From a virus: a DNA stretch of 26,464 nucleotides. A model generated the notes under the pieces. It searched no databases, was not told the origin of the DNA, and saw nothing but the letters and a program-made list of their open reading frames with translations. The position numbers were made by a program, and so were the translations under genes. The stretch covers positions 1 to 26,464 of the IMG/VR virus record IMGVR_UViG_3300032050_008276; one strand, written 5' to 3'. Below, one piece after another: positions 1,781 through 6,009 of the stretch; the first letter of the stretch is position 1; the number at the start of each line of letters is the position of its first letter.

Positions 1781-2353
1781 ATGCCACGGCAAACGCCGCC
1801 GGACGTGCTCACCCGCCTCGTTGCTGCGTTCGAGCAGACCGGCAACGTCTCCGAAGCCGCGCGCATCGCTGGTGTCCCGCGCACAACCGCGCGAGACATG
1901 CTGCGTGGGGCACAGGTCGCCACTCGCCGCCAAATCCACGCCCGCGCATGTGAGGCGGGGCTGCGTCAGGGGCGACGTGCGATCCGGGCAGAGCTCGTTC
2001 GCTGTGACCAGTACATCGCCGCTGTGATGGGCCCCGACCCGTCGACCCCGCTGTGCGAGCCGCGTGACTACGCGATCCTCGCGCGAGCGAAGGCCGACGT
2101 CGTGCGGACCATCATCGCCTGTGACGAGCGCGTCGGCGCGCGTCGACAGGAGCACCTCACTCGCCAGTTGAGTCGAGCCAAGCTCGAAGCACTGCGCGGT
2201 CTCGGGGCTGACCTGTCGGGGGCGACGGACGAAGAACTCGCGACGGTGCGAGCCATCCTCGAGCGAGCACGATCCAGTGGACCTGTTGCGGTCAATCCAG
2301 AGCGAGCAGGCGAGGCGGAACAAGGCGACGCTGCGGACGGCGAGCCTCGCTGA
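1781..2353 (+). CDS. Terminase small subunit candidate
   Basis: A 190-residue protein directly upstream of, and overlapping, the large terminase, which is the usual place for the small subunit that recognises phage DNA for packaging. Residues ~10-45 form a helix-turn-helix of the kind seen in small terminases (TGNVSEAARIAGVPRTTARD). The middle is helical and Arg-rich, fitting an oligomerisation region, and the C-terminus is acidic and low-complexity (ERAGEAEQGDAADGEPR), where small terminases often contact the large subunit. The ATG has AAAGGA nine bases upstream. The assignment rests on the HTH, size and position; a homeodomain-like transcription factor is the alternative. Confidence 0.7.
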   Translation: MPRQTPPDVLTRLVAAFEQTGNVSEAARIAGVPRTTARDMLRGAQVATRRQIHARACEAGLRQGRRAIRAELVRCDQYIAAVMGPDPSTPLCEPRDYAILARAKADVVRTIIACDERVGARRQEHLTRQLSRAKLEALRGLGADLSGATDEELATVRAILERARSSGPVAVNPERAGEAEQGDAADGEPR

Positions 2354-3656
2354 GTTCGTCCCGCGTGTCTCTCCCGCGTACGCCGCGCCGAAGCATCTCG
2401 GGCCGCTGCTGACGCTGTTCGAGGCGATCGAGCGCGGACCAGTGCGCGCTGCTCTCTCTGTCCCGCCGCGACACGGCAAGACCGAGACGGTGCTCCACGG
2501 CATCGCTCGCGTGCTCGTCCGCCACCCTGAGTGGACGATCGCCTACGTCTCGTATGCGGCCGACATCGCTCGGTCGAAGTCGCGGCAGATTCGCGACTAC
2601 GCGGCGCGCGCCGGCGTGGAGCTCCGGCAGGACTCCAAGGCGATGCACGAGTGGCGCACCCCGCAGGGAGGGGGCGTCATCGCGACCGGCGTCGGTGGCC
2701 CGCTTACGGGTCACGGCGTGCGGCTGCTCGTCGTAGACGACCCGCACAAGAACAGGCAAGAGGCCGACAGCCCGCTGATCCGCGAGCGAATCTGGTCGTG
2801 GTTCACATCGACGGCGATGACCCGCGTGGAGCCCGGAGGCTCTGCCCTTGTCGTGCACACGCGTTGGCACCGTGACGACCTGATCGGGCGGCTCGAGAGC
2901 GCCGAGGATCAGGAGTGGCAGGTGACCTCGCTCCCTGCGATCGACGTCCGAGGGCGCGCGCTGTGGCCCGAACGCTGGCCCGTCGCAGAGCTCGAGAAGC
3001 GCCGCGCCGAGGTCGGTGAGTACGATTGGTCCTCGCTGTTCCAGCAGCACCCCACGGTCCGCAAGGGCCGGGTGTTCGCGACGTTCGACCGCGCTGTGCA
3101 CGTCGTGCCGCACGCGGAGATCGAACGCCTCTACCGCCACGGTGGGCGCTGGTCCCTTCACGATCTCGGATGCGGCGTCGATTGGGGCTGGTCTGACCCG
3201 TCCGCGTGGATCGTCGGCGGCCGGACCGGCGCAGGGACGATCGTCGTCGTTGACGAACAGTACGAGTCCGGGGTGCTGGTCGACGACAACGGCGGGTGGC
3301 TCACGCGAGCCCGCACGATGCGCACCGAGCACAAGCTCGGCTGGTTCGCCGCAGACCCGAGCGAACCCGGATACATCACCGCGCTGCGCCGCAGTCGCGG
3401 GGAGCCGCTGGTCTACAACGCAGACAACGCGATCTCCGCGGGGATCCTCCGCATCGCGACGCACCTGCAGATGGTCGAGACGGGCGCGGGTCGCAAGCCC
3501 CGGCTGCTGATCTCGGACCGCTGCAAGAACCTGATCCGCGAGCTCGAGCTCTACTCCTACCGCGCTGGTCCTGACGGACCGAGCGAGGAGCCCGAGGACC
3601 GAAATAACCACGCAGTCGACGCGTTACGCTATCTCACACATCGTCTGACTTCATAG
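2277..3656 (+). CDS. terL: Terminase large subunit (packaging ATPase-nuclease)
   Basis: The motor that pumps DNA through the portal and cuts it. The N-terminal ATPase has a Walker A-type loop VPPRHGKTE (residues 62-70), a Walker B LLVVDD (150-155) and a coupling-motif region at TRWH (195-198). The C-terminal RNase H-fold nuclease shows its acidic residues in GVDWGWSDPS (D302), FAADPSEPG (D360) and NHAVDALRYL (D448). The GTG start overlaps the small subunit by 77 bases; no better start is visible downstream before the conserved region. The last 12 codons after D448 use TTA, TAT, ACA and CAT, unlike the rest of the gene, and the original C-terminus remains as a relic at 4328-4378 beyond an HNH gene. 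The enzyme itself looks intact. Confidence 0.95.
   Translation: MDLLRSIQSEQARRNKATLRTASLAEFVPRVSPAYAAPKHLGPLLTLFEAIERGPVRAALSVPPRHGKTETVLHGIARVLVRHPEWTIAYVSYAADIARSKSRQIRDYAARAGVELRQDSKAMHEWRTPQGGGVIATGVGGPLTGHGVRLLVVDDPHKNRQEADSPLIRERIWSWFTSTAMTRVEPGGSALVVHTRWHRDDLIGRLESAEDQEWQVTSLPAIDVRGRALWPERWPVAELEKRRAEVGEYDWSSLFQQHPTVRKGRVFATFDRAVHVVPHAEIERLYRHGGRWSLHDLGCGVDWGWSDPSAWIVGGRTGAGTIVVVDEQYESGVLVDDNGGWLTRARTMRTEHKLGWFAADPSEPGYITALRRSRGEPLVYNADNAISAGILRIATHLQMVETGAGRKPRLLISDRCKNLIRELELYSYRAGPDGPSEEPEDRNNHAVDALRYLTHRLTS
3618..3656 (+). repeat. Duplicated terL 3' end, upstream (replacement) copy
   Basis: These bases encode DALRYLTHRLTS and the stop of the current large terminase. The same protein segment, DALRYL followed by a different tail, is encoded again at 4337-4378 after the HNH gene. 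This copy uses AT-ending codons (TTA, TAT) where the downstream copy uses CTC and TAC. It is probably a replacement 3' end that arrived with the endonuclease gene and keeps the terminase functional. Confidence 0.75.
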
Positions 3657-3699
3657 TGAATTTGCTGACGAGCGCGAGCCTGATGATTAGGTAACGCGC

Positions 3700-4326
3700 A
3701 TGTCGAAGTCGGAAGTCATCGAGTACGGCGGCACTCGTTTTCGCAGGTACCCAGAGTCTCAGGACGCGTCTCTGAGGAACTACTTCCGCCCGCCGATTCA
3801 CATCGCGATGCGTGGCGTTGAATCGCTCCATCGCGAGATCTGGAAGGCCGAGCGTGGGCCAATCCCTCCCGGGTGGCACGTTCACCACATCGACGGGAAC
3901 CCGCTCAACAACAGCCTCGACAACTTGGAGTGCCTCCCGGAAGCCGAGCACCTGTCGCACCACGGCAACCAAGAGTGCAGTGCTCGCAAGCGCGAGCACC
4001 TCGACAGCATCAGGCACTTGGCTGCGGCGTGGCACTCCTCGCCAGAGGGCATTGCGTGGCACAAAGAGCACGGCCGCTCAACGTGGGAGACCCACGAGGC
4101 GGAGCAGAGAACGTGTGAGTTGTGCGGTGTGCTGTATCTGACGAAGGCACGCCAGACCGTTAAGTTCTGCTCCAACAACTGCAGGTCCAATGCGCGCAGG
4201 CGGTCCGGCGTCGATGACGTCGACCGCGAGTGTCGCCGCTGCAAGAAGACCTTCCGCGTCAACCAATACAGCGTGAAGACGTTCTGCGGTCGTCTCTGCG
4301 CGGCGCGCCATCGCGTCGGCAAGTGA
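3700..4326 (+). CDS. HNH homing endonuclease with two zinc-ribbon motifs
   Basis: A 208-residue free-standing homing endonuclease. Residues 43-89 form an HNH domain of the phage type: LHREIWKAERGPIPPGWHV, then HHIDGNPLNN (H62, H63, D65, N67), DNLECL (N75) and EHLSHHG (H84, H88). The C-terminal half has two cysteine clusters with identical spacing, C139-x2-C142-x14-C157-x3-C161 and C178-x2-C181-x14-C196-x3-C200, probably zinc-binding DNA recognition units. It lies between terL and portal, genes otherwise joined directly, with a 43-base AT-richer leader and only a weak Shine-Dalgarno. A 60-base line here (3721-3780) is 60% GC against 72% in portal (4741-4800), consistent with lateral arrival. 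It probably cuts terminase genes lacking the insert. Confidence 0.9.
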   Translation: MSKSEVIEYGGTRFRRYPESQDASLRNYFRPPIHIAMRGVESLHREIWKAERGPIPPGWHVHHIDGNPLNNSLDNLECLPEAEHLSHHGNQECSARKREHLDSIRHLAAAWHSSPEGIAWHKEHGRSTWETHEAEQRTCELCGVLYLTKARQTVKFCSNNCRSNARRRSGVDDVDRECRRCKKTFRVNQYSVKTFCGRLCAARHRVGK

Positions 4327-4327
4327 C

Positions 4328-4378
4328 CGCAAGCGCGACGCGCTCCGCTACCTCGTCGCGAGACTTGCCACTCAATGA
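4328..4378 (+). pseudogene. Relic of the original terL 3' end
   Basis: Read in frame, these bases encode RKRDALRYLVARLATQ and a stop (TGA 4376-4378). DALRYL repeats the last catalytic motif of the upstream terminase, and this copy uses the GC-rich codons normal for this genome. Its stop overlaps the portal ATG as ATGA, the junction expected if terL once ran directly into portal. It is therefore best read as the native terminase C-terminus, cut off by insertion of the HNH gene. It has no start codon and is probably not translated as such. Confidence 0.8.
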
Positions 4379-6009
4379 GCACCATCGAGACATACGACGC
4401 CGTGCGTGAGCACTGGCGCTACCTGCGCGACGCGCACCTCGGGGGCCGTCACTGGGCGACCCCGAGCGCGACGACGCTCGGCTCGACGTTGCTCTCGTGG
4501 CAAACGGGGATCGACGAGAGCGGACAGCCGATCTGCTCGCGCTCGACGCGTACGAGCTACCTCGTCGCGCACGAGGGCGAGAGCGATCGTCGATACGACG
4601 CGCGCCGCGCCATCGCGAACTACGTGAACATCGTCGGCCCTGTCGTGAAGGCGTACTCGGAGGGCGTCACCGCGCGCGTCACGCGCACCGTGGACGTGCT
4701 CGCGCCATTCGCCGAAGACATGGATCGCAGGGGCTCGACGTGGGGCGAGATCGCTGAGAGCGCGGCGCAGTGGGCGTGCGTCTACGGCGTGGTCGCAACC
4801 GTCGTGGACACCCCGCGCCGCGACGTGACGGGCATGTCCGAGGCGCAGCGCGCCGCAGAGAAAATCGCTCCGTACGTCGTGACGGTGCACCCTCCCGCGT
4901 GGGCGTGGGTCGAGTGCGAGGACGGGCGCGTTGTCGAGTTCGCCTACGTCTCGACGCCGTTCCGCTCCGACCTCTCCACGAGCGGCACCGCCGAGGTGGA
5001 GTTGCGCGTGTGGCGTGCGGACCGCAAGATCAACGGTGCTCGCGTCGCAGGCGGCTGGGAAGTGCGACAGGGAGGGATCGCGCTCTCGTCGAAGGCGACG
5101 CTGGCCGAGAGCGCGAAGGGGCTGAAGATCGTCGATAGCGGCGAACTCCCCGCGGTGCTCGGCGGCGAGATCCCGGTGACGTTCGCGTTCTACGACAGGG
5201 ACCAGGCGAGCGATTGCCCGATGGGAATCAGCCTCATCGCGGACACCGCCGACGCCGCGCGCGTGATCTACAACTGCCTGTCGTGGGCGATGGAAGTGAA
5301 CGCGTTGGCCGCGTTCCCGTTCCTCGCCGTCCCGATGCAGGACACGGGCGGCAAGCTCGATCAATCGACCGCGGCGAAGCTGGGCCCCGCACAGGGGCTC
5401 GGGTACTCCTCGGGCGCTGGCGCTCCGCAGTGGGTCGAGCCCTCGGGCACGTCGCAGAAAGAGCTGCGCGAGCACTGTGTGTTTACGTTCCAGTGGGCGA
5501 TGCGGTGCGCGGGGCTCGAGCTTGCGGCGGACTCGTCCGCGCAGGTGCAGAGCGGCGAGGCGTTGCGCATTCGCTCGCGTGACTTCGAGTCGCGCGCGCT
5601 TCGGTTCGCCCGCAACATGCAGCGGTGGGAGGTCGCGACCCTGCGCCTCTACGCGCGAATGGCGGGGGTCGATCCCGAGCCGATCGCGGTGACGTACGCC
5701 AAGCGGATCACGATGAGCGACCCCGGCGAAGACCTCGCCCGCGCGCTCACGGTGCTCGCCGCGCCCATCGAGATCGGCCCCGAGGCGCGCGCCATGCTCG
5801 TCAAGGTGGCGCTCGATGCGTCGATCCCGATGAGCGACGAAGAGCTGGGCGCGATCTACGAGCAGCTCCGCGCGATGTACCTCGGAGACCTCACGACCTA
5901 CGACGCGAAGCAGGCCGTCGAGCGCATGAGGGCTGAGAACGAGGCGAAGGGGCTCGCGCTGGTGGCTGCGGAGAGCAGCGCAAAGGCAGGCACCAATGCC
6001 TCCACCTGA
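4375..6009 (+). CDS. Portal protein
   Basis: A 544-residue protein in the portal position after terminase and before scaffold and capsid. It matches portal size and general pattern: an N-terminal part with aromatic and Arg-rich helices (REHWRYLRDAHLGG), a segment like those of DUF4055-type portals (NYVNIVGPVVKAYSEGVTARV, then AQWACVYGVVATVVDTP), a beta-rich wing (residues ~165-270) and long C-terminal helices (TYDAKQAVERMRAENEAKG). The portal forms the 12-fold ring through which DNA enters and leaves the head. The ATG overlaps the relic terminase stop; no Shine-Dalgarno is evident, so it probably depended on coupling to terL translation. The assignment is from size, order and family resemblance. 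Confidence 0.85.
   Translation: MSTIETYDAVREHWRYLRDAHLGGRHWATPSATTLGSTLLSWQTGIDESGQPICSRSTRTSYLVAHEGESDRRYDARRAIANYVNIVGPVVKAYSEGVTARVTRTVDVLAPFAEDMDRRGSTWGEIAESAAQWACVYGVVATVVDTPRRDVTGMSEAQRAAEKIAPYVVTVHPPAWAWVECEDGRVVEFAYVSTPFRSDLSTSGTAEVELRVWRADRKINGARVAGGWEVRQGGIALSSKATLAESAKGLKIVDSGELPAVLGGEIPVTFAFYDRDQASDCPMGISLIADTADAARVIYNCLSWAMEVNALAAFPFLAVPMQDTGGKLDQSTAAKLGPAQGLGYSSGAGAPQWVEPSGTSQKELREHCVFTFQWAMRCAGLELAADSSAQVQSGEALRIRSRDFESRALRFARNMQRWEVATLRLYARMAGVDPEPIAVTYAKRITMSDPGEDLARALTVLAAPIEIGPEARAMLVKVALDASIPMSDEELGAIYEQLRAMYLGDLTTYDAKQAVERMRAENEAKGLALVAAESSAKAGTNAST

Follow-up and report, generated by a model that had tools for sequence, protein, structure and literature searches.

Why would a phage encode the same motif of its large terminase twice, once on either side of an endonuclease gene? 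This question is raised by a locus in an IMG/VR virus record of 26,464 nucleotides, termed the window in the following, whose features are collected in Table 1. The resident terL terminates in DALRYLTHRLTS, which in the directly read translation belongs to a longer stretch ending in EDRNNHAVDALRYLTHRLTS and a stop, and its Asp448, which we take to be the last aspartate of the nuclease, is encoded by GAC at 3618-3620. Behind the HNH gene, a second sequence in a frame shifted by +1 relative to that gene contains the corresponding aspartate codon at 4337-4339, with the frame at 4328-4378 translating to RKRDALRYLVARLATQ followed by a stop, and its TGA at 4376-4378 overlaps the ATG of the portal gene at 4375-4377 as ATGA. 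This succession of terL end, HNH gene, relic and overlapping portal start had been claimed in a preliminary description of the DNA and was confirmed by direct reading. The same arrangement aligns without gaps in five IMG/VR contigs of at least 99.9% identity and therefore does not stem from a faulty assembly of a single sample; all five near-identical contigs of this phage carry the HNH gene. Across the terL stop and the spacer (3649-3690), the frame of the HNH gene reads LHSEFADEREPDD ahead of a stop, and a longer terL tail of a donor could have left this sequence as its frameshifted remnant.

Table 1. Features of the terL-portal region in the window.
Feature	Position	Strand	Evidence
terL, large terminase, complete with resident C-terminus	2277-3656	+	phrog_38 E 1.6e-58, Terminase_6N
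Putatively recoded or foreign terL 3' end, CGA AAT AAC CAC GCA GTC GAC GCG TTA CGC TAT ... TAG	3600-3656	+	
Spacer of 43 nt separating the terL stop from the HNH start; intron or intein signature absent	3657-3699	+	
HNH_3 homing-type endonuclease gene, 208 aa, intact	3700-4326	+	PF13392 E 1.8e-16, phrog_15471 E 1.2e-36
10-nt junction between HNH stop and Asp codon of relic	4327-4336	+	
Apparent relic of terL C-terminus, DALRYLVARLATQ and stop	4337-4378	+	sequence read and similarity statistics
Portal gene, start inside relic stop (ATGA)	4375-6009	+	phrog_145 E 3.2e-37

The match between the relic and the terL tail is beyond chance. Their alignment scores 38, a value reached by none of 20,000 shuffles and by 4 of the 41,989 16-mers from the six frames, all of which overlap the terL tail itself, and the second copy of DALRYL thus withstands the suspicion of being accidental. 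The likeness starts at about the aspartate codon, and since the relic contains RKR where terL has NNHAV, its left border is uncertain. On the DNA level, 16 of 19 bases are identical, which could reflect a tandemly duplicated terL end or a chance likeness, but both origins appear extremely unlikely in light of the differing codons, a similarity that fades outside of DALRYL, the exact ATGA fit with the portal gene and the recurrence of the same pattern in a second locus, L079, that is described below.

Both copies are distinguished by their codons. With a score of 0.21, the last 18 codons of terL, whose GC3 amounts to 8/18, are the lowest of all 18-codon windows (the next of the other 6,260 from 20 genes scores 0.30), whereas the 16 codons of the relic score 0.48, with 283 of 6,318 windows equal or lower. 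Values for whole genes are 0.56 for the HNH gene, 0.61 for terL and 0.70 for portal. The proposed atypical nature of the first copy is thus evident, whereas the description of the second as host-like is only relatively true, since 0.48 is still low. The near-native codon usage of the HNH gene also implies that it is not obviously a recent arrival. Within the DALRY codons, relic and resident copy differ in 3 of 15 bases, and it is from this difference in sequence that the new end would destroy the target site of the HNH protein. With its atypical terL end the carrier holds an altered site, the unaltered form being known in the window from the relic alone.

The endonuclease domain of the HNH protein is intact, which is reflected in its match to HNH_3 (E 1.8e-16) and in its full-length row in the family alignment, where invariant columns cover its HNH and CxxC residues, and inspection by eye revealed two zinc-finger-like CxxC modules. 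In Pfam, the protein matched HNH_3 alone, its PHROG matches are to HNH families and no PDB chain was found at E 0.01. A scan of the window against Rfam, covering introns within the models of this database and missing others, revealed nothing near the gathering score, the best hits being to unrelated sRNAs (E 1.5 and 2.3), and on this basis an intron at the locus was rejected. A decayed intein was equally rejected, as profiles of Hint domains and intein halves found no match in the window (E >2), whereas the same profiles recover L029 and L055, two controls from outside of the training set. The terL stop at 3656 precedes the HNH gene, which is neither surrounded by in-frame Hint N- and C-blocks nor, by profile search, flanked by halves of a split intein. 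A self-splicing intron or split intein that joins the upstream terL to the downstream relic would have a precedent in 9 of the best 80 relatives of the HNH protein, which apparently reside between or beside split-intein halves, but it is highly unlikely here given the lack of any Rfam match near the gathering score and of intein halves in the window, and a terL that is already complete, with its stop ahead of the HNH gene.

The origin of the gene is illustrated by its relatives. In a scan with the single sequence, we identified 35 loci, five of which are near-copies of this phage and several others of which adjoin terL. A family profile built from 24 HNH proteins was subsequently used for a scan of viral contigs, which provided at least 600 pattern matches, of which 254 were confirmed and the best 80 retained (L064-L143), and 24 relatives were found in genomes with the same profile. 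Among these best 80 of 254, 61 are nested out of frame inside inteins, with the intein frame located at +1 relative to the HNH gene in 58 of the 61 and at +2 in the remaining three (L097, L134 and L087), and this difference in frame could point to repeated origins of the nested state. The nearest relative in this set, L064, is 50% identical and nested at ..LN/CLDALRY, thus placing a homologous HNH gene at a like site of terL. Other nested examples positioned in terL before DALRY are L019 (1002-3236), with KNNH/C...VLVSN/CIDALRY, and L026, with NDH/C...VVVHN/CMDALRY, and the junction of the intein in L080 reads HN/CLDALRY. Nested arrangements were also observed in L071 and L075, and in contigs binned as archaeal or bacterial (L144, L145 and L146).

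With L080 left out of the C-extein counts (n=60), the first residue of the nested C-exteins is Cys in 55 and Ser in 5 cases; the pattern [C/S]x?D is present in 51 of the 60 and D[AST]xx[YWF] in 32, and because nine lack an aspartate at the C-extein start, not every nested relative is located at a DALRY-type motif. The segments upstream of the nested genes (n=59) match the terL or terminase families phrog_2 (34), phrog_38 (23) and TIGR01547 (21) and the intein families Hint_2 (27) and intein_Nterm (16), matches that were tallied for each family separately and by which not necessarily every extein would be terL. Contexts of the 19 non-nested members of the best 80 were assigned by eye as nine apparent split inteins, where the HNH gene is found between or beside the halves (with L092 showing the C side only), one relic-type locus (L079), three free-standing genes after terL (L104, L090 and L091) and six unassigned cases. 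The different forms are also found in named phages, with the HNH gene being nested in Acinetobacter phage Highwayman and Tetrasphaera phage TJE1, split in Lactobacillus phage CL2, where intein halves were detected by profile, and free in Pseudomonas phage PAE1. Since most of the best 80 relatives of the HNH protein reside in inteins, and mostly at a like site of terL, the window appears to hold a splice-free variant of a homing family directed at the active site of terL.

Several further relatives show deviating arrangements. In Highwayman (L050), the HNH gene is nested in a terL intein a few residues further on, at DA/CRY, and in the Acinetobacter phage BP10 (L049:3507-4148) a close relative of 47% identity is located before terS. 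In the Exiguobacterium phage vB_EauM-23 (L054:1990-4240), the terL frame ends with ..NNHSMAA and a stop just past NNH, and the HNH gene following this stop is succeeded by DATRYAMEMDMRPTAQALKF and a stop in a different frame; there, Rfam gave no match, and intein blocks were not clearly recognisable by profile (best E 0.21).

The distribution of relatives bears on the question of whether the gene could instead encode a packaging nuclease of the HK97 gp74, GVE2 or HrdP type that is native between terL and portal, with the second DALRYL being incidental. GVE2-like HNH genes indeed occupy this position in 89 of 89 Skunavirus genomes in the portion of the survey available to us (PMC12724721). Still, such function is very unlikely for a protein that matches HNH_3 and HNH families of PHROG and no PDB chain at E 0.01, and of whose best 80 relatives 61 are found out of frame inside inteins. 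Only 4 of 64 records matching the region of PAE1 cover at least 80% of it, and a native packaging nuclease would predict neither the relic nor the recoded tail.

A parallel to the window is found in L079, with its layout of terL, HNH gene, relic and portal, where terL and portal were assigned by profile. Its terL ends with DALRYACMFVERQSEGVFV and a stop, followed by the HNH gene and by DAMRYACMWAESSSKGVYV and a stop, the TGA of which overlaps the GTG start of portal as GTGA. The related contig L170, which shares 72% identity in terL and 48% in portal, shows no match to the HNH protein across its 4,910 bases (E >2), and its terL, ending in DAMRYAVMHFESASQGVYV and a stop, abuts portal with the same GTGA overlap as in L079. 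The end of L170 corresponds to the relic of L079 at 15 of 20 positions and to its resident tail at 12 of 20 (stop included), with 36 and 31 of 60 shared nucleotides, respectively, and would thus be slightly nearer to the relic, by a small margin. The end of L169, the nearest contig by terL (74%), reads ..DAMRYAVMYLDNTSPLILFGAMEDED before the stop and favours neither of the two L079 ends, and the ends of L171-L175 (terL 47-54%) are unlike both. The preliminary description had proposed that terL of relatives lacking the HNH gene would end like the relic and not like the resident tail, which is compatible with L169-L175, where one end is relic-like and the others resemble neither. In the HNH frame of L079, a stop at 3391 is followed by a further zinc-finger-like stretch (L079:3391-3534), and this copy of the gene may thus be decaying.

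A second parallel is provided by Yuaviruses that share 97.5-97.8% identity over the compared part of terL, some of them carrying the HNH gene and others lacking it. We compared the last 437 terL codons, divided into 413 and the final 24 (stop included), with those of phage M6, which lacks the HNH gene. In the three phages that carry it, changes are concentrated in the tail, amounting to 14 of the final 24 and 12 of the preceding 413 codons in PAE1 (Fisher p 2e-13), to 12 and 21 in SN1 (6e-9) and to 15 and 9 in FBPa53 (6e-16), whereas in the control PAC5, without HNH gene, 2/24 and 6/413 codons are changed (p 0.07). These tail changes are mostly synonymous, with amino-acid changes in the last 24 codons found only in PAE1 (2), and the recoding starts within a few codons of EDH/IGDAIRY, at about the position of the inteins in the nested relatives. 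Among the matches listed, 46 of 90 records share 99% identity or more with the tail of M6, compared to 83-89% in the three phages with HNH gene and 86-88% in Bordetella relatives, where the lower value probably reflects greater distance only. Nine of the 64 records matching the PAE1 region do so at 80-90%, and the four covering at least 80% of it stem from three distinct phages, as two are records of the same phage. PAC5 (L186:1372-1761) contains a different small gene in the gap between terL and portal, and its terL end is hardly changed.

Despite their recoded terL ends, PAE1, SN1 and FBPa53 contain no relic. In M6, terL and portal are separated by a spacer of 57 nt, and in PAE1 the end of the HNH gene overlaps the portal start. 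Retention of a relic may depend on an overlap of the terL stop with the portal start, as in the two cases described here. Scans of IMG/VR for relatives of the phage itself, with terL, portal, MCP and the relic pattern as queries, retrieved only near-identical or distant contigs and no HNH-less relative. The distant terL matches include L007 (52%, to residue 270 only), L008 (52%, at its contig end) and the weaker L009-L013, and a portal query against 50,697 phage records returned zero matches.

Taken together, the anatomy of the locus, the atypical tail of terL, the shared site and the parallels in other lineages lead us to consider it quite probable that the HNH protein is a homing endonuclease whose recognition site in terL surrounds the codon of the last nuclease aspartate, and that its free-standing gene is preceded by a substitute terL end and followed by the relic of the original one. 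Because the substitute end retains the motif but spells it with other codons, terL would work without splicing and the site would be changed. In such a process, the enzyme would cut an unoccupied terL at NNH/xDALRY, and the subsequent repair would copy the recoded terL end together with the HNH gene, as suggested by the atypical tail in the window and by the recoding boundary in the Yuaviruses. On the right-hand side, the junction would then be formed with the terL end of the recipient itself near the cut, thereby generating the relic, a step indicated by the fact that the relic begins no more than one or two codons from the intein site, and the relic might persist by carrying the overlapping start of portal. 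The interpretation given in the preliminary description is sustained where it concerns a free-standing HNH gene at the catalytic motif with a foreign or recoded end before and a native-type end after it, as illustrated by L079 with L170 and by the Yuaviruses. Its further proposal, the joint arrival of the HNH gene and the new end, would be one possible route, next to a conversion in place of an HNH gene nested in an intein.

Such conversion in place would have started from an ancestral intein with nested HNH gene, whose N-half was replaced by an intein-free terL end and whose C-half was lost, leaving the old C-extein as relic; it would lead to an end state identical to that of an invasion by a different history, and we regard it as possible but rather doubtful. 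It is consistent with the nested state of the nearest HNH relatives (among the best 80 of 254) and with the scattering of free-standing forms in a weakly resolved tree, where 11 free-standing rows require 8 changes of context, compared to a mean of 10.6 after shuffling with 4 of 500 shuffles as low, and where the starred branches force only 2. In both the window and L079, the relic frame is located at +1 to the HNH gene, as is the intein frame in 58 of the 61 nested loci, but two of two +1 frames are expected by chance in 1 of 9 cases. The distance between the HNH stop and the codon before the aspartate is 7 nt in the window, within the 1-85 nt of the nested loci (n=59). The relic of L079 contains, directly before DAMRY, a Cys corresponding to the +1 residue of inteins where L169-L175 have Met, and a block-F-like FYNL follows 7 nt past the second stop in the HNH frame, a distance that coincides with the upper bound of the 5-95% interval for nested loci (-55 to 7). 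Against a conversion in place, no Hint N- or C-block was found by profile in the window and L079 (E >1), and the relic of the window has Arg at the position of the Cys. Its HNH gene contains three stops in the +1 frame, compared to a mean of 2.5 in shuffles, and the open +1 frame of L079 is unremarkable, with 443 of 2,000 shuffles being as open.

The preferred homing of a free-standing gene could be part of a broader scheme, which we put forward tentatively and as somewhat less than an even prospect, where one HNH family occupies a single active-site codon of terL and spares the gene in three modes, namely nested in an intact intein, between split-intein halves or free-standing with a recoded terL end. 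Lineages would switch between these modes, and the relics in the window and in L079 would mark the switch from intein to splice-free form.

Several elements of this picture have precedents. The seg and mob genes of T-even phages are, in the part of the review available to us, free-standing homing endonucleases showing intronless mobility and co-conversion of flanks (PMC2988022), and recipients of homing are assumed, in the accessible portion of another study, to become resistant through sequence replacement (PMC12724721). Like seg and mob, the endonuclease gene in the window is free-standing and not part of an intron, but unlike these, it is found in close proximity to its site, which is an active-site codon, and a displaced end of the target gene appears to persist as a relic. 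A duplicated C-terminal segment beside an endonuclease ORF is present in atp6 of Allomyces. More generally, duplicated C-terminal segments beside endonuclease ORFs are described for fungal mitochondrial atp6 and cob in the excerpt of the source at hand (PMC6279837). As far as this excerpt extends, the window resembles them in its succession of target gene with C-terminus, endonuclease ORF and second C-terminal segment, whereas the fungal cases are mitochondrial and involve GIY-YIG and LAGLIDADG enzymes instead of an HNH protein, a phage terL and comparative evidence for recoding.

Other precedents concern the hidden and the intein-associated forms. The accessible text on phage ShiLan reports a hidden HNH gene with zinc-finger domains, out of frame in a phage methylase and with a homing-like distribution (PMC11855218). 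On this partial account, relatives of the HNH protein in the window share the zinc-finger-type domains and the out-of-frame relation to a host gene, but in contrast to ShiLan, where no intein surrounds the gene, they reside in terL inteins, and terL does not extend into the HNH gene of the window itself. Dassa et al. in 2009 reportedly described fractured genes, where split inteins accompany the gene parts and an endonuclease gene is found between these. This layout, an essential phage gene in two parts with the endonuclease in their middle, is apparent in 9 of the best 80 relatives, unlike in the window, which contains a whole terL and no intein halves. In mycobacteriophages, TerL inteins with homing endonucleases are found at functional motifs, and all seven sites covered by the available part of the source reside in the ATPase domain (PMC5050341), whereas the site described here is at the nuclease motif DALRY. 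Actinobacteriophage inteins with non-canonical architecture are said to have been described by Gosselin et al. in 2025, and the class of HNH genes nested in inteins may already have been described elsewhere. Within the literature surveyed, part of it in excerpts, intronless homing, co-conversion, out-of-frame HNH insertion, TerL inteins and duplicated ends in fungal mitochondria are already known, whereas we did not meet a terL nuclease site common to nested, split and splice-free HNH forms or a phage relic of a displaced gene end.

A like site is occupied by versions of the enzyme that are nested in inteins, apparently associated with split inteins or splice-free, which makes a direct test possible, and for this test the terL genes of Yuaviruses with and without HNH gene offer ready cleavage substrates. 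Our work provides evidence from phage sequences for a homing endonuclease being able to move together with a recoded end of the essential gene that it targets, while the old end is left behind, and the ends of essential genes would therefore be swappable by selfish elements.
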